The notes under the pieces: generated by a model
What the model was told of the DNA's origin: nothing
What the model saw: only the letters and a program-made list of their open reading frames with translations
Database searches by the model: none
Virus record (IMG/VR): IMGVR_UViG_3300026521_000337
Location: 1-23,774 of that record
Strand: one strand, 5' to 3'
DNA from: a virus
Length of the DNA: 23,774 nt
In this document: piece by piece, positions 2-23,571 of the stretch
How positions within the stretch are numbered: the first letter of the stretch is position 1
How the letters are laid out: each line of letters opens with the position of its first letter
Translations under genes and position numbers: made by a program

Positions 2-2296
2 AGTAAATCAAGTAAATCAAAAAAAGGTAATCGTGGTGAGCCTGATTTAATATATTTAAACGAAGATAAAAAATTACTTATTCTAATTGAAAACAAAGAT
101 AAAATAAAAGATCATATATCTAAAAATGATGATAATCCTCAAATGTTTGCAGTTGATGGAATAAAACATTATTTGAAATTTTTCTTACAAGAAAATCTAA
201 ATAAACAAAAAGAAACAACCAAAAAATATTTAGAAAACTTTAAAATTGTTGGTATTGCTTTTAGTGGAGATATTTATGATGAATTAAATCATAGAGTTAC
301 TACTTTTATAATAGACAACGACACAATAAAAGATATAGAAATTGAAGAGTTTTTAAATGAAAATGATTATATATCGTTATTTGAAAATTTGGATTTAGAA
401 TTAATTTCTAATAATATATCAAAAAGTTCAAGTGAAATTAATAGAATTTTAAGAAGTATTGACTCACAAAAAAGACCCGTCTTACTTAGTGCCTTGATGA
501 TTTGTTTATATGAAAAAGATAATTTTAAAAATGATTTTAAACAAAATTATCAAAATAATAGTATTAAGAATATTATACGAAATATACCAACAACAATAGA
601 AGATATTTTAGAGCGAGAAGGAATTGATAAAAACAAAATTGATGTTTTGATAAATGAATTAGCTTTTATAAAAACCGATAAAGATTTAAGCGATACAGAT
701 ATTTTAAAAGATATTTTACTTGAACTTGAAAACAATGTTATACCATTATTCAACAAGCAAACAAGTTATGATATTATTGGTAAATTTTATGAAGAGTTTT
801 TAAGATATGCAGGAATATCAAATGTAAAAAAAGGGATAGTCCTCACACCAAATCATATTACAAAACTTTTTACAAACTTAATAGATATTAAAACAAATGA
901 TGTGATTCTTGACCCTTGTTGTGGGACAGGAGCATTTTTAATCGCTGGTATGAATAAATTAATAAACACTATTCAAAACAGTAAAATTCCAAATAAAACA
1001 GATAAAATTAAAAATATAAAACAAAATCAACTAATAGGTTTTGAAAAATCCCCTACAATGTACTCTTTAGCAATATCAAATATGCTTTTTCGAGGGGACG
1101 GAAAAAGTAAAATTTACAATATAGATTTTTTTGAAAATGAAACAGATACTATTTTGGATGAATTAAAGCCAACTATTGGATTTATAAATCCACCTTATGG
1201 TGGCAAAGACAATAAGACAAATCCAACAAAAAAAGAGATCCAATTTTTAGAAAAGTTGTTAGATAATGTTAGCAGATATGGAGTTATTATCGCTCCACTT
1301 TCTACTTATTTTAAAGATGAAGTTGTAAGAAATAGGATATTATCTAAACATACATTAAAAGCTGTTATAAATATGCCAAATGAACTTTTTGCTCCAAATG
1401 CTTCAACTCATACAGCTATTGCAATATTTGAAACTAATCTACCGCATAATAATAAAGAAGTAATTTTTTATAACTTAAAAGATGATGGATTTGTTCTATC
1501 AAAAAATAAAGGCAGAACAGATATTTATAACAAATGGCAAACAATTCAAAAAGAACTTTTAGAAAAAATAAACAATCCTATAAAATATAATGATTATATC
1601 AATTTGGTATATAAAAATATAGCTGAAGATGATGAGTGGATTATACAAGCTCATATGAAGAGTGATTATTCAAAACTTATACAAAAAGATTTTGAGTTGG
1701 TGTTAAAAAAATATATTATTTTTAAAACAAAAAAAGAATTTAATTTACTTAATAAAAAAATAGATGAACTTACTTTTATGGAAATTTTGTTGCAAAATAA
1801 TATAACAAACCAATCTATAAATAATACAAAAATAAATTTATTTGATATGCAATGGCAAGAGTTTAGAATTAGTGATATATTTAAAATTAAAAGAGGCAAA
1901 AGATTAAAAGAAGAAGATAGAAAAAGTGGGAATATAGAATATTACTCTGCAAGTGAATTTAATAACGGTTTAACAGATTTTATATCAAATCCTATCTTTT
2001 TAGAAGAAAAAGCTTTAATATACACAACTTTTGGTGATTGTTTTTTTGTAGAAAATCAATTTACTGCAAGTGATGAAATTAGTATTTTAAAACACAACAA
2101 ATTAAATATATATAACGGTCTATTTATAGCAACAATTTTAAAGCAAAACAAATATAAATATACATTTGGAAGAAAAGCATTTGCAAATAAATTTTCAAAT
2201 GACATTATAAAGCTACCAATTACAAAAAAAGATATTCCTAACTGGCAGTTTATGGAAAATTATATAAAATCATTGCCTTATTCAGATAATTTATAG
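2..2296 (+). CDS. Fused restriction-modification enzyme (nuclease-N6 adenine methylase-specificity), 5' partial
   Basis: Likely a single-chain type IIG-like enzyme that both cleaves and N6-adenine-methylates DNA. The frame is open without a stop from base 2, so the ATG at 143 is internal and the true start lies left of the window. The 47 codons before that ATG encode GEPDLIYLNEDKK followed by LILIENK, which is a PD...ExK nuclease motif. Counting from the ATG at 143, the middle holds the methylase: motif I DPCCGTG near residue 256 and motif IV NPPYGG near 349 (gamma class). From about residue 568 a region starting WQEFRISDIFKIKRGKRL resembles one type I S (target recognition) domain of about 150 residues. 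It ends 8 bp from the convergent tape measure gene. Which sequence it recognises cannot be told. The domain calls are confident. Placing it as IIG rather than a type I-like relative is inference. Confidence 0.87.
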   Translation, partial: SKSSKSKKGNRGEPDLIYLNEDKKLLILIENKDKIKDHISKNDDNPQMFAVDGIKHYLKFFLQENLNKQKETTKKYLENFKIVGIAFSGDIYDELNHRVTTFIIDNDTIKDIEIEEFLNENDYISLFENLDLELISNNISKSSSEINRILRSIDSQKRPVLLSALMICLYEKDNFKNDFKQNYQNNSIKNIIRNIPTTIEDILEREGIDKNKIDVLINELAFIKTDKDLSDTDILKDILLELENNVIPLFNKQTSYDIIGKFYEEFLRYAGISNVKKGIVLTPNHITKLFTNLIDIKTNDVILDPCCGTGAFLIAGMNKLINTIQNSKIPNKTDKIKNIKQNQLIGFEKSPTMYSLAISNMLFRGDGKSKIYNIDFFENETDTILDELKPTIGFINPPYGGKDNKTNPTKKEIQFLEKLLDNVSRYGVIIAPLSTYFKDEVVRNRILSKHTLKAVINMPNELFAPNASTHTAIAIFETNLPHNNKEVIFYNLKDDGFVLSKNKGRTDIYNKWQTIQKELLEKINNPIKYNDYINLVYKNIAEDDEWIIQAHMKSDYSKLIQKDFELVLKKYIIFKTKKEFNLLNKKIDELTFMEILLQNNITNQSINNTKINLFDMQWQEFRISDIFKIKRGKRLKEEDRKSGNIEYYSASEFNNGLTDFISNPIFLEEKALIYTTFGDCFFVENQFTASDEISILKHNKLNIYNGLFIATILKQNKYKYTFGRKAFANKFSNDIIKLPITKKDIPNWQFMENYIKSLPYSDNL

Positions 2297-15045: not shown

Positions 15046-15588
15046 TTTTTCCCCTTTATTTGAATTTACTATTTTTGACTCTGCTGGGATAGTTCCCATA
15101 GCTAAACCAACTTTTGCATTTGGTATTGCTGGTATTCCTACTAAAGAACATTCGTAAATGCTCCATTTTGTTGCCTTGTAGTATTTCGTACCGTTTACCT
15201 CTTTTTCTAATACTTTTTCCTCTATATCAGCCCCTATACTAAACGACTGTAAAAAACCTTTTGCTAATTTGTTAAAAAGTTTCATTGATTGTTCATCATC
15301 TTTATCAAACACGGCATTTGCTTTTAATTTTTTATCTTCTAGTCTTACATCTGTAAATTTTGCTATTGGTAGGTCGTTTGTATTGTGATTTACAAACATA
15401 GAAAGTATCTCTGCTCTTTGTAAGTCTATAGCTTCTTCGCTATGCTCTAAAGTGATATAGTATTCTCCATCTTCCCAGCTATATCTTTGCACTTGTGTTT
15501 CATCGCTTAAAATTACTGGTACGATACAGTTTTCTACATCTATACCTTTTAGTTCTATATTGCAGTTTGCACCTATTTTACAACCCAT
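14683..15588 (-). CDS. Prohead protease with C-terminal scaffold domain (lambda C-like)
   Basis: Cleaves scaffold and portal or capsid components during head maturation. Residues 20-165 carry a serine protease of the HK97-prohead type: FVNHN with His68 near 65-69, GFLQSFSIG with Ser115/Ser117, and YECSLVGIPAIPNA with Glu146 as the likely acidic or substrate-side residue. Residues 182-240 form a strong coiled coil (KLEAEKLDLEAKLTKALADM), followed by a short acidic C-terminus ending SIWDKL. The gene starts 11 bases inside the portal gene and has GGAG upstream. The lambda C gene has the same protease-scaffold arrangement, including an internal start for the scaffold. Which Ser is the nucleophile is not certain. 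Confidence 0.88.
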   Translation of the reverse strand: MGCKIGANCNIELKGIDVENCIVPVILSDETQVQRYSWEDGEYYITLEHSEEAIDLQRAEILSMFVNHNTNDLPIAKFTDVRLEDKKLKANAVFDKDDEQSMKLFNKLAKGFLQSFSIGADIEEKVLEKEVNGTKYYKATKWSIYECSLVGIPAIPNAKVGLAMGTIPAESKIVNSNKGEKMDFSKENFEKLEAEKLDLEAKLTKALADMDSTKAELEKVQKQSVALEAAIAERKDIVGMAFEFGLNKEKTIELMESKDIADANAKMLELLRSNGATFSGDGSEEHFERQTDDSASIWDKL

Positions 15589-16993
15589 TTTTCATCTCCT
15601 TTTTTAGTTGTTTTTTTAGTTGTTTTTTGATTTTTTTGTAAGTCATTTTCTTTTTCAAATGTTCTTTATAATCTTTACCCTTGCTAGAGATTATGTCTAT
15701 TTCGTTTAGTACACCAGACTCAAGCCCCTCCGTATAAGCTTTCTCTACTTTTGCTGGATCTATATGTGATGTGCTTTCTCTTATAAACTCTACTTCTCTA
15801 TATTTTGATGGGTCAGCCCAATAATCTTTTAAAGTGATTTTGTTTGATAATATAAGTGCATCTAAAAGTCTTACTTCTATTACATCTCTCCATACCATCT
15901 CAACAAAATCTGTAAAATCTATTGCATATTGTTTTTCATCTAGTTGTGCATTTAATAGTGCTGCATTATAAGATGATGGCATCTCCCTAAAAGTAGATTG
16001 AGTAGATAGTCCAGCACCAGCACTAATAGTTCTTTTTGAACTACCATCAAGGCTATCAAATATACTGTCTGCTTTTGCTTGTAAGTTTATTACATCATCA
16101 TCTGATGGAATGTAGTTTGCACCATCTAAAGAACCGTTTATTTTAAAAGCTTTGTACAAGTTATAAAGCTCCTCTTCACTTACTCTATTTCCAAGTCCAC
16201 TAGATTTTGCTTTTTCTTTTTTGATGTCTAGGATTGTATTAAATAGATTTGTTTTTACTACTATTGCACCTTTTGCTTTTTGCTTCGCTGTTCGTAGTTC
16301 TGCTACATTGTAAGCAGATAACATATCTAGTGTAGCTACTATAGGTGCAAGTGGAGATACACCACTATATTGAGTGGGGTCAGCAAAAGGTATCACAAAT
16401 AAAGTCAAGTCCTTAGCACTTATTAACTGTGATGTTTCCCTCATAGAATTTGTATAAATATAAATCCCCTTTAATTCTCCAAAGTTATTTATTTTTAATC
16501 CATTTATTTTATTTTCATAAATATTGTCTTCTGCTGTATCTATCATAGATAAGGGGATTATCTCTAGTTTATACGGAATATCCCATTTTTTATTATAATG
16601 GTGTCTTATGATAAAACCACCTTGTATTTTAGAATATCCTATTAGGCTTCTCTCCATTAACCCCCTATAAAACCTACCAGTTATTTCACAATTTCCTCTC
16701 TTACTCCATTGTTTTATGTAGTATTCAAATTGTGAATTGAAGTCTTGATTGTCTGTACGACTTTGAATATTTATAGAAGTTCCAATCACACCCTTTTCAT
16801 AAGCTAGTCTTATTGAAGATACTAGGTCATTGTTTAGATTTAGTGCGGACACCTTTTCATTTAGCTCTTTTGCATTGTGAGCTTTGTATAACTCAAAATC
16901 ATCATTATTTGTATTCATAAAATTAAGAGCTTCAAAGTTAGAATAAAAGTAGTTTCCACCCTTAAAAAAGTAATCTTTTATCTTACTCAACAT
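15578..16993 (-). CDS. Phage portal protein (lambda B family)
   Basis: Dodecameric ring at one capsid vertex through which DNA is packaged and ejected. The 471-residue product shows the family pattern: early helical clip region, VSSIRLAYEKGVIGTSINIQ, GNCEITGRFYRGLMERSLI, a long stem helix, and TISAGAGLSTQSTFREMPSSYNAALLNAQ near residues 345-375, which is typical of lambda-type portals. It lies between the W-like gene (11-base overlap) and the protease gene (11-base overlap). GGAG precedes the ATG by about 8 bases. The C-terminus is Lys-rich (KKIKKQLKKQLKKEMK) and is encoded by a short tandem repeat. Confidence 0.92.
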   Translation of the reverse strand: MLSKIKDYFFKGGNYFYSNFEALNFMNTNNDDFELYKAHNAKELNEKVSALNLNNDLVSSIRLAYEKGVIGTSINIQSRTDNQDFNSQFEYYIKQWSKRGNCEITGRFYRGLMERSLIGYSKIQGGFIIRHHYNKKWDIPYKLEIIPLSMIDTAEDNIYENKINGLKINNFGELKGIYIYTNSMRETSQLISAKDLTLFVIPFADPTQYSGVSPLAPIVATLDMLSAYNVAELRTAKQKAKGAIVVKTNLFNTILDIKKEKAKSSGLGNRVSEEELYNLYKAFKINGSLDGANYIPSDDDVINLQAKADSIFDSLDGSSKRTISAGAGLSTQSTFREMPSSYNAALLNAQLDEKQYAIDFTDFVEMVWRDVIEVRLLDALILSNKITLKDYWADPSKYREVEFIRESTSHIDPAKVEKAYTEGLESGVLNEIDIISSKGKDYKEHLKKKMTYKKIKKQLKKQLKKEMKNGL

Positions 16994-17310: not shown

Positions 17311-18003
17311 TTATGCTACCATAGTATTATTGCAACATTGTTTCATGCTGTTGTATTTTTGTTGTAGTTCAAAATATTTATCTTGATATTTGTTTCTTTC
17401 AGCTTTTAGATTGTCTATCATAGCTATAGCAAATTTTTGGAGTTCATCTCCACCAGTTCGTAAAGCTTCTACATACTGTACAAAATAATCTGCTCTTTTT
17501 TTAAAAAATAAATCTGTTCTATCTTCACATTTTAAGTTTTTTAATTCTTCGTTTGTAGCTTTAATAAGCATATCTACTTTATCATCAAAACTCATATGCT
17601 CTATCATTAAAGCTTTTTGTTTTTCTATTTGAGCTTTATATTTGTTTACTGTATTTTGCAGACCTCCTATTTTTCCATATAGGGCTTTTGTGTTTATATG
17701 CTCTTTCATACTATAAAACTCTTTTACCAATGCTTTTTTAAACTTTCTCACAACCTCACTATTTCTTAGATAAGTCATAAGTAAAGTTGCTTGTGGTTCA
17801 TTTAGGTAATATGTGATTTGTCCTCTACCAGCACCATTATTTAATTTCTCCGTTTCAAACGGAATAATACCAAACTCCTTAAAATCATTTTCATATTTTC
17901 TAATCAATTCATTTATATTTTTTTGGTTGTTGTTTGTATTTTCAGCTATTGTTCTATGTGATACTCTTAATTCTCCATCTCTTCTCACTACTAGATTTTT
18001 CAT
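17311..18003 (-). CDS. Rha family phage regulatory protein
   Basis: DNA-binding regulator found in temperate phages. The 230-residue product starts with the Rha domain: RVSHRTIAENTNNNQKNINE (HTH region, residues 13-32), then DFKEFGIIPFETE, GRGQITYYLNEPQATLLMTY and RNSEVVRKFKKALVKEFYSM (up to about residue 98). Residues 110-225 form a long coiled coil, probably for dimerisation. GGGAG lies about 9 bases before the ATG. The ATG overlaps the stop of the 38-residue upstream ORF in an ATGA, so the two are translationally coupled. Rha was first described as interfering with phage growth in hosts lacking IHF. Its role here is not shown by the sequence. It lies at the edge of the switch region. Confidence 0.88.
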   Translation of the reverse strand: MKNLVVRRDGELRVSHRTIAENTNNNQKNINELIRKYENDFKEFGIIPFETEKLNNGAGRGQITYYLNEPQATLLMTYLRNSEVVRKFKKALVKEFYSMKEHINTKALYGKIGGLQNTVNKYKAQIEKQKALMIEHMSFDDKVDMLIKATNEELKNLKCEDRTDLFFKKRADYFVQYVEALRTGGDELQKFAIAMIDNLKAERNKYQDKYFELQQKYNSMKQCCNNTMVA

Positions 18004-18141: not shown

Positions 18142-18259
18142 AAAGTCATAATTAAATGACCTTTAACAATGAAAGTATAAAATAGATGACCTTAAATATG
18201 ACTTAATCAGTCATTAATCTATGACCTTTTATTGTTTTTAAGCATTTATTTATGACTTT
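18142..18259. promoter_or_regulatory. Operator array: seven ATGACYTT-type sites between divergent operons
   Basis: Copies at 18142-18149 (minus), 18156-18163, 18186-18193, 18198-18205, 18209-18214 (minus, partial), 18221-18228 and 18252-18259. Two pairs form inverted repeats: AAAGTCAT-6-ATGACCTT (18142-18163) and the perfect 6-5-6 palindrome ATGACTTAATCAGTCAT (18198-18214). The array lies exactly between the rha-side and HTH-side -10 elements. It looks like the immunity operator region. The most likely binder is the HTH protein encoded at 18277. Confidence 0.75.
18174..18179 (-). promoter_or_regulatory. Candidate -10 for the sORF-rha operon
   Basis: TATACT on the minus strand. Operator copies lie directly upstream (18186-18214) and downstream (18142-18163), so bound repressor would block it. 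The predicted leader is about 50 bases and can fold into a hairpin from the operator pair at 18142-18163. Confidence 0.42.
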
Positions 18260-18276: not shown

Positions 18277-18471
18277 ATGAAAAATATAACATATAAAGAA
18301 ATAGCTCAAAATTTAGACAAAACAGAGGGTACTATAAAAAATTGGAAAAAAAATCATCCAGTATTATTAGAGTATGTAAAACTCGGTGCATTTTGTAAGA
18401 AGAATGACTTAGATATAGAGAAGATTAAAAAGCTAGTAGATATAAGAGATAGTATAAAAGAAAATGCTTAA
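18277..18471 (+). CDS. Small HTH protein, candidate phage repressor
   Basis: A 64-residue DNA-binding protein with a helix-turn-helix: ITYKEIAQNLDKTEGTIKNW, then KKNHPVLLEYVKLGAFCKKN. A C-terminal helix DIEKIKKLVDIRDSIK follows, likely for dimerisation. It has no separate ligand or cleavage domain, so it is shorter than cI or LexA-like repressors. The ATG at 18277 is preferred. A TTG at 18271 would overlap the -10 element. It is the first gene of the plus-strand cassette and stands next to the operator array, so it is the best candidate for its regulator. The next gene follows within 6 bases. A near copy of its C-terminal helix occurs at 19624. A related 57-residue protein (W-K-x-x-[HR]-P...EY) is encoded at 23398-23571. 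Confidence 0.75.
   Translation: MKNITYKEIAQNLDKTEGTIKNWKKNHPVLLEYVKLGAFCKKNDLDIEKIKKLVDIRDSIKENA
18412..18459 (+). repeat. Source copy of a duplicated 48-bp coding segment
   Basis: Encodes DIEKIKKLVDIRDSIK at the end of the HTH gene. It matches 19624-19671 at 43 of 48 bases, same strand, and the five differences do not change any amino acid. Confidence 0.85.
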
Positions 18472-18476
18472 GTGTG

Positions 18477-18899
18477 ATGATGAATGATATATATTTTCAA
18501 CGACTACAAAAACTACAAAAAGAGTTTAAAGGTATAAAGTCAAGATTAGGTTCAAATAGAAGCTTTAAGCCACATCAAAAAGCTGTATATGATTTTGTGA
18601 TGCAATCTAAAAAAGAGATAGAATTTAAAATAAATGACTACACAGTTGTTTTATTTAAAGGTAATGATGGTATAGGTTTTAAACATATACTTCTAAGGCA
18701 TTATTGTAGTGGCTGTGATGGTGAAATAACTGCAAGAGATATATTAAATATCGGTAATGTAATCAAAAATGATATTATCCTTGAAACTTATAATAATAGA
18801 ATAAAATTTATACAATATAAAAATGATAAAAAATATACAGTTATAGCAAAAAGAAAAGATGGTAATAAATTGGTTTTTAACTTTTTTTCAAGTGAATAA
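18477..18899 (+). CDS. PBECR-like predicted phage nuclease
   Basis: A 140-residue protein whose C-terminal two thirds resemble the phage-barnase-EndoU-ColicinE5/D-RelE group: GIGFKHILLRHY near residues 67-78 (the conserved His pair region), GEITARDILNIGNVI near 84-98, then the strands IKFIQYKNDKKYTVIAKR and KLVFNFFSS. The group is predicted to contain RNases. Residues 1-45 are a basic helical region. GTG 18474, ATG 18477 and ATG 18480 are all possible starts and none has a good ribosome binding site. Translation is likely coupled to the HTH gene, 5 bases upstream. A repressor-like HTH gene followed by a nuclease could be a toxin-antitoxin or exclusion pair. The family call is from pattern memory, not a search. 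Confidence 0.62.
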   Translation: MMNDIYFQRLQKLQKEFKGIKSRLGSNRSFKPHQKAVYDFVMQSKKEIEFKINDYTVVLFKGNDGIGFKHILLRHYCSGCDGEITARDILNIGNVIKNDIILETYNNRIKFIQYKNDKKYTVIAKRKDGNKLVFNFFSSE

Positions 18900-18905
18900 A
18901 AAAAA

Positions 18906-18971
18906 GATAGGACAAATAAAACAGTTATCTCTCTAACCTACCTTTTATAAAGGCTTATTTGCAATCCTATC
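18906..18971. other. Possible structured RNA or terminator with three-way-junction fold
   Basis: Starts 6 bases after the nuclease gene stop codon. Outer stem GATAGGA/TCCTATC (7 bp), then after a 3-base bulge CAAATAA/TTATTTG (7 bp). Inside are two small hairpins: GTTA-TCTCTC-TAAC (18924-18937) and CCTTT-TAT-AAAGG (18941-18953). It is 66 bases long. It lacks T-arm consensus and a proper anticodon loop, so it is not a tRNA. It lacks a U-run, so it is not a typical terminator. The rest of the gap to 19098 holds the next promoter and palindrome. Confidence 0.5.
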
Positions 18972-19020
18972 TACTTATGCCACAATTATACCAAACAAAT
19001 ATATAAAAGTCAATGAGATA

Positions 19021-19098: not shown

Positions 19099-19320
19099 GT
19101 GAATAAAGCTGAATTTACAAAGATTTTAAAAGATATAAATTTAAGTAAAAAAGAGTTTGCAACTCTATCAAATATATCTTATAATACAGTAAATAATTGG
19201 AATGATGATAATAGACCTGTTCCACCTTGGGTAAAATCTTGGTTAGAGAATTATATAAAAGCAAAAAGCTATGAAGATGTAAAGGATAAGGTTTTTGAAA
19301 TTGAGGGTGTGGAGATATGA
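19099..19320 (+). CDS. Small HTH regulator (Cro/CI-like)
   Basis: A 73-residue DNA-binding protein. The helix-turn-helix is AEFTKILKDINLSKKEFATL followed by SNISYNTVNNWNDDNRPVPP (residues 4-43), similar to XRE-type domains with a W after the recognition helix. The C-terminus (WVKSWLENYIKAKSYEDVKD) is helical. It starts with GTG and has AAGGA about 6 bases upstream. Its stop overlaps the next start as ATGA, so it forms an operon with two small membrane proteins. It has its own promoter and a palindrome in the leader, consistent with autoregulation. Confidence 0.75.
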   Translation: MNKAEFTKILKDINLSKKEFATLSNISYNTVNNWNDDNRPVPPWVKSWLENYIKAKSYEDVKDKVFEIEGVEI

Positions 19321-19529
19321 AAAGATTTGTAAAAAAAAGACTCCAACTATTTAAACAAAGAGATATAAGAGGAGAGATACTTTCAAATATAGGGTTAGGT
19401 GTATTTGTAAATGCTCTTTTTTCTATAACTTTAAATCAAATATCTATTTTAGTTATACTTGATCTGTTTTTTGGTATAATACTCATAGTAGAAGGAACAA
19501 TCTTAAAGAAGGATACATTATGCAATTAA
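19317..19529 (+). CDS. Small membrane protein with two transmembrane segments
   Basis: A 70-residue protein, not recognised as a named family. Residues 1-18 are strongly basic (KRFVKKRLQLFKQRDIRG). Transmembrane segments are near 20-40 (ILSNIGLGVFVNALFSITL) and 43-62 (SILVILDLFFGIILIVEG). A short basic tail follows, so both ends are probably cytoplasmic. It is translationally coupled to the HTH gene (ATGA overlap). The next start lies 10 bases before its stop. It could be an exclusion or membrane-acting toxin component, but nothing in the sequence proves this. Confidence 0.68.
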   Translation: MKRFVKKRLQLFKQRDIRGEILSNIGLGVFVNALFSITLNQISILVILDLFFGIILIVEGTILKKDTLCN

Positions 19530-19911: not shown

Positions 19912-20718
19912 TTAAGTTAAACTGTCCTCTAAGATATAGTTAGCTGTAAAATGTTCTATTTTTTTCTTTTTTGTGTTGTGAGTTACAGCGATAGAATGTT
20001 CTTTTTGGTGGGTGTACCATTTGTTTTTGTCTATATATTCGCTTAATATTTCGCTGGGATATGAAGATAGTAGAAATTTACCTTTTATACTTTGTAGTTG
20101 TTCAAGTAAATTTTGAAAAGCATCTTCGGTATACCCTTTGTAATGCCCACACTCACTATTAAAATAAGGTGGGTCAATATAGAAAAAAGCATCTTCTTTA
20201 TCAAATCTTTTTATAATATCTAAAGCATCTCTACTCATAATGGTAGTCTTTTTAAGTCTATCTTTAAAGGTATCAAAATATGTTTTTTTATTAAAAATTT
20301 TAATTGGTTCTTTATCTGATTTGCTAAATGCAAAACCTCCCAATATTTTAGTTGCAAAACTCATATTACATTGTACCCATACACTCCAGGCTACCTCCAA
20401 ATCACTATATTTAGTTGGATTTTTATAGATATTTTTTGCTTCCTTATATAGGGCTTCACTAGAAAATGTATCATCTATCATATTGGCAAGATTATCAAAG
20501 TCATATTTTAAGACTTCATAAAAAGTGATTAGATTATCGTTTAAGTCGTTTATTACTTCCGCTTCGCTCGGCTCTTTTGCAAAGAATATCGCTCCACCAC
20601 CAAAAAAAGGCTCAACATATAGCTTATGTTTTGGAATAAGTGGTAAAATAGTTTTAGCTAATCTTTGTTTCCCACCATAGTAACTTAAAGGTGGTTTCAT
20701 ATATATTTTTTTTGACAT
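19912..20718 (-). CDS. DNA N6-adenine methylase (D12 class, Dam-like)
   Basis: Transfers a methyl group from S-adenosylmethionine to adenine in DNA. The 268-residue product has the D12 hallmarks in alpha-class order: PPLSYYGGK (residues 9-17), motif I EPFFGGG (36-42), VINDLNDNL, and motif IV DPPY (182-185). Length is normal for the family (about 270). AGGA lies about 7 bases before the ATG. It sits between the large terminase and the DUF7220-like gene. A phage copy could protect its DNA from host restriction or mark packaging or regulatory sites. The target sequence cannot be read; GATC is typical of Dam relatives but not assured. Confidence 0.92.
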   Translation of the reverse strand: MSKKIYMKPPLSYYGGKQRLAKTILPLIPKHKLYVEPFFGGGAIFFAKEPSEAEVINDLNDNLITFYEVLKYDFDNLANMIDDTFSSEALYKEAKNIYKNPTKYSDLEVAWSVWVQCNMSFATKILGGFAFSKSDKEPIKIFNKKTYFDTFKDRLKKTTIMSRDALDIIKRFDKEDAFFYIDPPYFNSECGHYKGYTEDAFQNLLEQLQSIKGKFLLSSYPSEILSEYIDKNKWYTHQKEHSIAVTHNTKKKKIEHFTANYILEDSLT

Positions 20719-20817: not shown

Positions 20818-22731
20818 TCAACTAAACAAAGATAACAATTTGCTCCCATCATCTTCTACAATTTTTGGTTTTTGTATATTTGCCACTAGGTCTGCTTCTG
20901 CTAGAGCTACAGACATAACACTACAATCCCAGTAATCATTTCTAACAGATGTGTTTATTTTTTCCCAACTCTTTTTAGTGGCTCTCTTACCTTTTGTAAC
21001 TTTATAAACAAGTTCTTCTGAGGTCATGTGCCTAATATAGCTATGCTTTGTAGTTTCTACACCACTTTCATCATCTATAATGTCTTGATTTATATAAAAT
21101 AATCTTCTAGTATAATCCTTGGTATTATCATTTACTTTATCTATGGTTCTTGTAATCATACTGTTTAGCTCGTTTTTTGCCATAATATTTGAAACAGACA
21201 TTATTTTAAACTCATAATCTTCTCCATCTAAGCTTTTTTTATATCTTTTCATTTTAAATAATATATTTCCAGCGATTTCTGCTACCCCCTCATAAGCCCA
21301 TATGATGTCTTGCTCCCCAGTTTCATTTAAAACTTCTATAACAAATTCATCTACTACGGTTGTTCTTTCTGATAATCCTCTCCTATCTATCAAACATCTA
21401 TCTATCTTATACTCTCTTCCACTTGAGTCTTTTAAATTTGTGTACAGTAGTGTTTTTATATCGTGTGTAGTTTCAATTCTGCCATGAGCTACTGTATTTC
21501 CAATAAAACCATACTGATATGCTGTTATTTGATAATAAAAGTGATCCTTTTGAGTATCTACTGTTAGATATAATTTAACTGTATCTGCTGGTACTTCCCA
21601 CTTTCTTAAACCGTTTCCTAGTAATAATATATCGTTTTTATCTCTACTTTTGTTATTTTCTTCATATATTTCATTAAAATAGTCTATATATACAATAGCT
21701 TTTTGCTCAAAATTATCTGCATTGATTAAAAGTTCTGCTATAGTGCTAAAATTTGTTGAGTACATAGCTAAGGCATTTGCTTTATATCCTACTGTAGTAT
21801 CTTTTTCACTACCCTCTACGACATTAAACCTACAGTTTCCATCTAATATCTGCTTATCTTTATCTGTTGAATAAATGTGGCTTTCACAATGAGGACATAT
21901 AAGATAAGGTTCTATAGATAAAGCTTTTTTTCTATAATCCATCAAATCAAACTCTTTACCTCCTAGTGTCTTTGAGTGTTCATCTTCTGAATAGTAGTAA
22001 AAATGCTTACTTGTAGGATAAAAGAACTCTTTACAATGAGGACATTGTATTTCCCATTCTTTTTTACATTTACTATCTTTATAAGCTTTTGCTATCTCAT
22101 CATTTTCTTCTTTTAATGTTGATACTAAAAAAACTTTTCTAAAAAACTTTTCATAAGCTTTTGTTCTACCAATAAGTTCTGTAACACTTCCAACTGGAAA
22201 GAGTGAAACTTCATCTAAAAAGAGATATTTTACTGTTCTACTTCTTCTCTCTTTTTCTCCAGTACCAGTAATAAAAAGTGTACCTCCAGCTACTCTTTTT
22301 CTAGTTGTTACACTCCGTTTTTTTTCAGTTTCTTTAAACTGTTCAAATTTTCTTTGTAAGCTTTTTATCCCTCTAAAAAATGGGTCAAACTTTCCTATGA
22401 TATAATCAGGTACACCGTTATCTGCTGGTATTGATAATTGCATATTTGTAGGGTCTGTATCTAAAGCTTTTGCTATTAAGCCAAACATAGCAGTAGTTTT
22501 ACCACATTGAGAACTAAACATAGCGGTAAACTTCCAAATGTGTGATTTATCAAAATCATTCATCATCTCTCTTAAATGTGGGGTGTATTTTAGCTGCATA
22601 TATCCAGTTATGGGAGAAACATCACTGTTTAAGTATATATTGTTTTCTACCCATACATCAGTAGGTGTAAATTCTTCCCACATAAAAGAGCTAGATAATC
22701 TTTTACCACCGATACGAACTAAATCTTTCAA
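20818..22731 (-). CDS. Terminase large subunit (GpA family)
   Basis: ATPase-nuclease motor that cuts the concatemer and pumps DNA into the prohead. The 637-residue product (lambda gpA is 641) has a Walker A-like SSQCGKTT (residues 73-80), Walker B YLFLDE (169-174) and a zinc ribbon with CPHC at 230-233 and 279-282, as is usual in GpA proteins. The nuclease part has LTVDTQKDHFYYQITAY near residue 397, RCLIDRRGLSERT and a C-terminal NDYWDCSVMSVALAEADLV. Its start overlaps the small subunit stop by 4 bases, so translation is coupled. Confidence 0.95.
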   Translation of the reverse strand: MKDLVRIGGKRLSSSFMWEEFTPTDVWVENNIYLNSDVSPITGYMQLKYTPHLREMMNDFDKSHIWKFTAMFSSQCGKTTAMFGLIAKALDTDPTNMQLSIPADNGVPDYIIGKFDPFFRGIKSLQRKFEQFKETEKKRSVTTRKRVAGGTLFITGTGEKERRSRTVKYLFLDEVSLFPVGSVTELIGRTKAYEKFFRKVFLVSTLKEENDEIAKAYKDSKCKKEWEIQCPHCKEFFYPTSKHFYYYSEDEHSKTLGGKEFDLMDYRKKALSIEPYLICPHCESHIYSTDKDKQILDGNCRFNVVEGSEKDTTVGYKANALAMYSTNFSTIAELLINADNFEQKAIVYIDYFNEIYEENNKSRDKNDILLLGNGLRKWEVPADTVKLYLTVDTQKDHFYYQITAYQYGFIGNTVAHGRIETTHDIKTLLYTNLKDSSGREYKIDRCLIDRRGLSERTTVVDEFVIEVLNETGEQDIIWAYEGVAEIAGNILFKMKRYKKSLDGEDYEFKIMSVSNIMAKNELNSMITRTIDKVNDNTKDYTRRLFYINQDIIDDESGVETTKHSYIRHMTSEELVYKVTKGKRATKKSWEKINTSVRNDYWDCSVMSVALAEADLVANIQKPKIVEDDGSKLLSLFS

Positions 22732-23408
22732 GATATTTTCTCTTTTATAAAGTCATATAATTTATCAAGTGCAAAAGATACATCTTCCTCATCGCCTACC
22801 TCTTTTTCAACTATTTTTCGCATATCATTTATTCTGTCTTTGTAATGGCGATCTAGCTCATCTTTGATTTCAAGATATGTCTTGTTTTCTAATAATACTG
22901 GTAATGCTTTCAAGTCATTTCTATAAAAGCTACTCATAGTTGCACCTAAGTCCGCCATAGCTTTGTCTATTTCATCTTTTCTAACCAACACTTTCTTTAA
23001 TTCTAATACACCTAGTTCTTCTTTTCGTGCTTGATGTTCAGTTTTTAGTGCATCGGCTCGTTTTTTTCTATAATCCCAATCGTGTTCTAGTTCTTCTTCT
23101 ACTGCAAGTTCATCTTTTTTTTGCTGTCGTTTTGACTTTGTAAGATCTATATTATTCACTATCCAATCAATTACACTATTTAATTCATATAATGCTAACT
23201 TGCTTGAACTATACTTGCTTCGTGGCATACCCACCTGCTCGTACTGTCTTATTCTACTCTCTGAAACAGACAAAGCTTTTACTAGTTGTTTTTTTGTAAA
23301 TAATGAAGTATTATCTACAACAATAACATCATCATAGCTAATATCTGCATCAGGATAGTCTTTTTTTATAACATTGAGTCTGTTATCATTTCTTAAACTA
23401 CGGAACAT
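22728..23408 (-). CDS. Terminase small subunit (Nu1-like)
   Basis: Recognises the packaging site and recruits the large subunit. The 226-residue product has a winged-helix-type HTH at about residues 36-62 (FTKKQLVKALSVSESRIRQY, then EQVGMPRS), and YELNSVIDWIV after it, as in Nu1. A long charged coiled coil (80-140) follows, and the C-terminal region would bind the large subunit. The start lies 11 bases inside the 57-residue HTH gene. The order small-large terminase directly before the other packaging genes supports the call. Confidence 0.87.
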   Translation of the reverse strand: MFRSLRNDNRLNVIKKDYPDADISYDDVIVVDNTSLFTKKQLVKALSVSESRIRQYEQVGMPRSKYSSSKLALYELNSVIDWIVNNIDLTKSKRQQKKDELAVEEELEHDWDYRKKRADALKTEHQARKEELGVLELKKVLVRKDEIDKAMADLGATMSSFYRNDLKALPVLLENKTYLEIKDELDRHYKDRINDMRKIVEKEVGDEEDVSFALDKLYDFIKEKIS

Positions 23409-23571
23409 CTATAACACTAACCAACTTTTTTTGTAGCTTATGTATAGCCAAACACTCTCTTATAAGCTTGTATTCTAAAGGTCTTGTTCTTTTCCAATGA
23501 AAAAATGTACTTTTCTTCTTGTCTATAGCTTCCATTATTTCTTTTTCTGTGATTTCTATTACTATTTTCAT
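23398..23571 (-). CDS. 57-residue HTH-like protein ahead of terminase
   Basis: Small, basic protein with an HTH-like core: ITEKEIMEAIDKKKSTFFHW, then KRTRPLEYKLIRECLAIH. It resembles the candidate repressor at 18277: both have T-x3-W-K-x2-[HR]-P and a nearby L-E-Y. Its last 11 bases overlap the terminase start, so it is the first gene of the packaging operon. The leader has two operator-like repeats and no clear ribosome binding site. It may be a self-controlled late-gene regulator or help terminase bind DNA. Confidence 0.68.
   Translation of the reverse strand: MKIVIEITEKEIMEAIDKKKSTFFHWKRTRPLEYKLIRECLAIHKLQKKLVSVIDVP

Follow-up and report, generated by a model that had tools for sequence, protein, structure and literature searches.

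The stretch of viral DNA analysed here (IMG/VR record IMGVR_UViG_3300026521_000337, positions 1 to 23,774; a linear virus fragment of 23.8 kb, hereafter the window) probably carries a two-part cassette, made of an endoribonuclease toxin of the BECR fold and a convergent, structured RNA antitoxin with its own strong sigma-70 promoter. An earlier sequence-only reading of this DNA had paired the nuclease gene with the helix-turn-helix (HTH) gene lying just upstream. Such a partnership was not borne out, as the conserved partner of the nuclease is a structured minus-strand element located directly 3' of its gene (from approx. 18978 down to 18898), which that reading did not include. The parts of the proposed cassette are as follows:

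18477-18899, plus strand: BECR/PBECR-like nuclease, putative toxin (140 aa; start at GTG 18474 or ATG 18477/18480).
18898-18978, minus strand: gene for a small structured RNA, the putative antitoxin (5' end estimated by reference to the -10 box).
18985-19013, minus strand: predicted sigma-70 promoter driving the RNA (TTGACT-17-TATAAT, TG preceding the -10 box).

The RNA is predicted to fold into an 8 bp helix (P1), a 3-nt bulge (UUG), a 7 bp helix (P2) and two hairpins (P3 and P4), followed by a U-tract at the nuclease stop codon; the predicted transcript of the window terminates there in a stem and at least seven T. The window promoter matches the consensus (TTGACA-17-TATAAT) at 11 of 12 positions, the best score among 12 promoter-like sites in the region, and 11 or 12 matches out of 12 were found at 10 of 20 RNA loci. 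From these features, we predict that the element is a minus-strand RNA gene and infer that it is transcribed. Outside the window, the P1 helix is usually followed by CCA, often with GUG before it, which forms a tRNA-like end; such 3' ends were seen in L002, L010, L012, L014, L016, L017, L034, L056, L058, L059 and L060 (numbers with the prefix L designate loci), and the window RNA has no such end.

Conservation of this fold was evaluated on several alignments. Two of these were built by MAFFT without structure: in the first one (A8: window, L012, L002 and L014), 93.4% of the cells were paired over 19 pairs, and changes on both sides affected 10 of the 19, a result that none of 500 shuffles equalled; in the other one (A13, a second group of six sequences), 97.9% of the cells were paired and covariation was again unmatched (0/500). 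A first MAFFT alignment of all types (A5) was misaligned and not used. Finally, a hand alignment of 15 sequences, which was fitted to the structure and whose counts thereby lean towards it, displayed 96.5% of paired cells, compensatory changes in 17 of the 19 pairs, and 95 compensatory cells versus a shuffled maximum of 40 (extra letters were typed into the 5' tail of the L059 row, whose pairs were entered separately). In this last alignment, 25 cells hold a G-U pair if the RNA is read on the minus strand, whereas a single A-C cell (i.e. G-U if the RNA were on the plus strand) was detected, so that the RNA can be assigned to the minus strand.

These counts also bear on a simpler explanation, namely that there is no separate RNA gene and that the element serves the nuclease mRNA as an ordinary 3' untranslated region or as a bidirectional terminator. 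Its location directly past the stop codon would suit such a role, but the 25 to 1 ratio of G-U cells, minus-strand promoters with up to 12 matches out of 12, and the existence of orphan copies with no nuclease nearby all contradict it, and we consider this explanation extremely improbable. A plus-strand RNA or mRNA terminator in particular is ruled out by the G-U asymmetry together with the minus-strand promoters.

This structure-conserved minus-strand element is always linked to one clade of nucleases. Searches covered part of one phylum as well as phage, plasmid and viral collections, with E-values derived from shortened calibrations. The RNA was present at 21 of the 21 intact stand-alone nucleases of the clade (L010 and L055 being counted once), although 10 of these loci either built the models or are near-copies of the builders; in one family of 104 genomes, it accompanied all 11 solo nucleases. 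Among the 21 linked loci, 19 were identified by covariance model (model R1 matches the window at 18905-18975) and two by position and hand fold. The latter are L018 and L019, which the model scores weakly or not at all and for which the assignment relies on position, promoter and hand fold; in both, the coding end of the nuclease enters the RNA gene, the last residues of the protein and the 3' strand of the RNA sharing the same DNA. At most loci, the RNA begins within approximately 20 nt of the nuclease stop codon.

The linkage was confirmed beyond the initial set. A protein-only scan of viral contigs conducted afterwards retrieved five more nucleases (L093-L097, with L095 and L096 near-copies), all in phage loci between portal and terminase genes as in the window, and model R2 then found the RNA at each of the five, on the opposite strand and just past the stop codon (E 4e-20 to 2.5e-15). 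This model, which derives from the second group alone and contains no type-A sequences, also recovers L014, L056 and L057 from the first group (E 2e-5 to 8e-4), as well as L060. Other candidates were discarded: R1 matches in L047, L048, L049 and L092 were judged to be chance (L092 falls within a gyrA-like gene), and a DNA pattern for the type-B core highlighted 13 loci in the viral contigs that lack an R2 match and are apparently coding sequence. The type-A DNA pattern search returned no loci. In two genomes, chromosomal nuclease-RNA modules are close to a tRNA gene (L014, 2139-2212; L017, 2216-2289), which suggests arrival on integrating elements. A plasmid locus (pACIB) is carried by an Aliarcobacter strain.

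The RNA family is new to Rfam and previously undescribed. Indeed, the Rfam search of the window and nine loci yielded no relevant family at the gathering threshold (only two tRNAs) and nothing meaningful at E 1 to 5, and a description of this RNA was not found in the open papers searched. A survey of non-coding RNAs in Arcobacter sp. L mentions unnamed rare Arcobacter motifs, with the sequences given in its supplements (PMC6429828).

The linkage is asymmetrical. Six orphan RNAs have no nuclease within approximately 1.5 kb: L046 (R1, E 7e-8), which adjoins a PIN/CopG-like pair; L065 (E 1e-14); L067 (E 9e-9), beside phage genes; L086 (E 5e-9); and the syntenic L090 and L091 (E 1.5e-4 and 3e-3). 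In L034, the RNA is kept while the nuclease is truncated to 76 codons. Conversely, no intact nuclease of the clade without the RNA was seen among the 21 intact solo nucleases examined. Orphan RNAs combined with the lack of RNA-less intact nucleases are the pattern expected of a toxin and its antidote. RNA and protein also diverge in parallel (Mantel r 0.57, 0/5000), a correlation which common descent alone would also yield. Approximately 0.4 kb from the orphan RNA of L086, a 128-aa protein with an EEYIRHVKNKH motif (699-1085, minus strand) is possibly another PBECR-type protein.

Two other roles for the RNA have to be weighed against this pattern. The RNA could be a cofactor, guide or substrate within a ribonucleoprotein effector, rather than an inhibitor of the nuclease. 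The conserved fold, the UUR bulge and the CCA-like 3' end, which most rows display, could serve for recognition or processing, and the parallel divergence of RNA and protein would fit as well. However, an antidote accounts for nuclease-less orphan RNAs more readily than a cofactor does, and no variable guide-like segment was seen, making this role unlikely. Alternatively, the convergent RNA could act in cis as an antisense, base-pairing with the nuclease mRNA at its 3' end and causing this mRNA to decay, in the manner of type I systems. RNA antitoxins overlapping the 3' end of the toxin mRNA are known in type I systems, the position allows a convergent 3'-end overlap, and the RNA does overlap the coding end in L018 and L019. 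Yet an antisense needs no conserved fold, whereas here compensatory changes keep the fold while RNA identity falls to 26%; moreover, orphan RNAs have no neighbouring mRNA to pair with, and at nearly all loci the core of the RNA is located 3' of the stop codon. We therefore hold an antisense role to be rather unlikely, and retain the antidote as the preferred reading.

The 140-aa protein is likely to be a divergent nuclease of the PBECR/BECR (RelE-like) type and, judging from its predicted structure, likely an RNA-cutting toxin. The sequence-only reading had called it PBECR-like and proposed a profile search and a structure prediction: the former gave PBECR3 below threshold (E 0.07, 13.5 bits against a gathering score of 30), and the latter a BECR-like fold. 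Relatives of the window protein match PBECR1 in a similar way (E 0.007-0.08, up to 17.3 bits against a gathering score of 27.6). As these PBECR scores remain under the gathering scores, the window protein is a divergent relative rather than a filed Pfam member. In its AlphaFold2 model (pLDDT 72, from a four-sequence alignment), helix 67-74 precedes the C-terminal strands, with His70 within the helix and His75 beside it, in line with the BECR fold (an N-terminal helix followed by four to five strands). Both histidines are invariant across nine relatives, in agreement with an active-site His in the N-terminal helix. The best VIA-align rows were BrnT (Z 5.0) and CdiA 7m5f (Z 4.7), and the upper rows are mostly RNases or toxins of BECR fold (BrnT, CdiA toxins, YoeB, RelE, YafQ, ParE and HigB1); each Z is modest, but the agreement of the rows supports this fold. 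ToxN rows did not turn up among the RelE/BECR-type proteins returned by the structure search, which is no proof against a ToxN fold. PADLOC and NCBIfam gave nothing informative for the nuclease, the PDB sequence search gave CdiA (E 0.035) as the only match, and BFVD provided weak matches, including a minor capsid and a polyvalent protein.

The genomic distribution of the domain points in the same direction. Among 397 Campylobacterota genomes, relatives of the nuclease are mostly domains of large polyvalent proteins, with frames of up to 2533 aa, and occurrence in phage polyvalent proteins is characteristic of PBECR/BECR domains. One Helicobacter cetorum prophage protein contains ddrB-ParB and PBECR2 besides a nuclease-like domain, and the adjacent protein contains such a domain together with a full PBECR3. 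PBECR domains have been described in Helicobacter polyvalent proteins (PMC5512222), and since the domains of these Helicobacter proteins fit this picture, the PBECR call is right at the fold level, the window protein being a divergent relative. In a Helicobacter cetorum prophage, a long stretch comprising the nuclease-like domain is duplicated between two adjacent polyvalent-protein open reading frames (ORFs; L013, 848-8304).

Several observations weigh against the cassette as proposed. Besides the lean of the hand alignment towards the structure, half of the RNA loci have no promoter that matches the consensus well, and a strong U-tract terminator characterises the window and L046, while that of most other loci is weak or missing. 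The nuclease lies below every Pfam PBECR threshold, and the C-terminal Ser/Thr expected in a PBECR active site has no single invariant column, although a Ser or Thr is present near the end of all nine relatives. Finally, the RNA was not found at the polyvalent-protein loci or at the solo relatives L011 and L043; these proteins and domains thus exist without it, L011 and L043 belonging to another part of the tree.

The nuclease gene and its HTH neighbour are inserted in a cargo slot of the phage genome, delimited and regulated by the following features:

18271/18277-18471, plus strand: HTH ORF (approx. 65 aa; PHROG/Pfam HTH and TerS-type HTH matches), upstream gene on the predicted nuclease transcript.
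18142-18259, strand not assigned: operator-like repeats with ATGACCTT half-sites, direct and inverted.
17311-18003, minus strand: divergent Rha-type antirepressor/regulator (Pfam Phage_pRha, E 8e-16; phrog_2657, E 2e-24).
15578-16993, minus strand: portal-like protein, one edge of the slot (assigned by sequence and position).
20818-22731, minus strand: large terminase, other edge of the slot (assigned by sequence and position).

The HTH/nuclease set is oriented opposite to the late genes, and the portal/terminase gene order is repeated in L002, L012 and L093-L097. The HTH and nuclease-like genes do lie side by side, as the sequence-only reading had it: both ORFs were confirmed, with a gap of 2-5 nt. 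The operator array that it placed above them was also recovered as operator-like repeats between the divergent antirepressor and the HTH gene, consisting of three 25-nt copies ending in ATGACCTT (18142-18231), a fourth variant extending to 18259, and inverted copies. On the other hand, its term 'immunity operon' is a loose label for a pair that sits between portal and terminase genes, and its toxin-antitoxin-like pair holds in part, for the nuclease is of BECR type and probably belongs to such a module, carried as phage cargo under a phage HTH promoter, but the partner was wrong.

An HTH protein acting as antitoxin or specific regulator of the nuclease could account for genes that are adjacent or overlapping in the window and L002, under operator repeats, and HTH antitoxins do exist in type II systems. 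A type II system of this kind requires a conserved pairing of HTH and toxin genes, which was not observed. Among stand-alone relatives with recognisable neighbours, no locus but the window and L002 has the window HTH ahead of the nuclease; L012 and L093 have another HTH, a relative of the second one of the window (19099-19320); and no HTH precedes the nuclease in L014, L010, L016-L019 and L094-L096, nor in the chromosomal and plasmid copies examined. Conversely, relatives of the window HTH precede unrelated cargo genes beside a divergent antirepressor in L003-L007 (the L007 match being the same as that of L006). As the HTH is absent or swapped at most nucleases and is paired elsewhere with other cargo, it belongs to the slot and not to the nuclease: these gene neighbourhoods rule it out as the antitoxin, and the broader alternative that includes specific regulation is very unlikely. 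Judging from gene context, the HTH protein is a generic regulator of the cargo slot.

Slot cassettes seem to couple an HTH with a variable cargo gene. The window contains a second small HTH followed by a small membrane protein (19099-19529, plus strand; HTH 19099-19320, phrog_8898, E 7e-24), whose relatives are those that precede the nuclease in L012 and L093. Three further features of the window were noticed: a Dam-like adenine methylase inside the slot (19912-20718, minus strand), an N-6 methylase-like restriction-modification ORF adjoining the tape measure gene (2-2296, plus strand), and a small protein like the 18277 HTH (motif FFHWKRTRPLEYKLI; 23398-23571, minus strand), encoded immediately upstream of a gene that resembles a terminase small subunit.

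The cassette could function as follows. The RNA would be made constitutively from its own promoter, fold into the conserved P1/UUR-bulge/P2/two-hairpin structure, and bind and block the nuclease. If the RNA supply failed, either because a competing phage takes over host transcription or because the element is lost, the nuclease would be freed and would cut RNA, and growth would stop. In the window, the HTH gene facing the divergent antirepressor would set transcription of the toxin mRNA without acting as antitoxin. In this scheme, RNase activity, toxicity, direct inhibition of the protein by the RNA, and a role in phage competition or element maintenance are all expectations of the model, as is transcription of the RNA.

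Nucleases of the RelE/BECR kind count among the most common toxins of bacteria, and a survey gives them protein partners (PMC11980606). An RNA partner for the BECR fold would thus join two large toxin-antitoxin worlds, and an RNA family with a well-defined fold leads to a direct prediction that can be tested in culturable bacteria (Aliarcobacter and relatives). If the proposal is true, orphan RNAs would represent ready-made RNA-based immunity or counter-defence.

Compared with known systems, the nuclease shares the general fold of the RelE, ParE, YoeB and BrnT type II toxins and of CdiA toxins retrieved by the structure search, but those toxins have a protein as their antitoxin or immunity partner; the text of the BECR-fold toxin survey contains neither 'RNA antitoxin' nor 'noncoding' (PMC11980606). 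PBECR domains of polyvalent proteins likewise have a BECR-type fold, a conserved His and a phage context, and solo versions are reported; here, the protein remains below all Pfam PBECR1-3 thresholds and has a predicted associated RNA, which the consulted part of that account does not report for PBECR (PMC5512222).

Type III systems (ToxIN, CptIN and TenpIN) also associate an endoribonuclease with a structured RNA partner, but in ToxIN-type systems the RNA consists of tandem repeats and precedes the toxin within a single operon (PMC5086642). Here, the RNA is single-copy, downstream and convergent, has its own promoter and is not co-transcribed, with no intervening terminator; moreover, it is predicted as a branched helix with no pseudoknot seen in the prediction, and the toxin looks BECR-fold rather than ToxN-like. 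As the type III layout was looked for and not found, the cassette is not filed as type III, though it may work alike. Phages can carry antitoxin-like RNA, as exemplified by pseudo-ToxI (PMC3475682), and AvcID, a deaminase toxin with an RNA antitoxin, shows that RNA antitoxins also occur with toxins other than those of ToxN type, even if both its toxin chemistry and its RNA differ from those described here (PMC10511110).

By analogy, the nearest precedent appears to be AbiF-RCd22 from a Clostridioides difficile prophage, in which a small RNA neutralises a toxin by contacting it directly (PMC12373285). Both are composed of a single toxic (here, putatively toxic) protein and a neighbouring RNA that is small, structured and driven by a promoter of its own, AbiF-RCd22 being prophage-borne and RCd22 acting on the protein in trans; the differences lie in the BECR fold of the protein and in the downstream, convergent position of the RNA, and direct neutralisation, shown for RCd22, is what we infer here. 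We would give slightly better than even chances to the cassette representing a toxin-antitoxin class that has not been described before, distributed over phages, plasmids and chromosomes of Campylobacterota, in which a single branched, convergently encoded small RNA acts directly on a BECR/RelE-fold nuclease to neutralise it, with orphan RNAs serving as immunity against this nuclease.
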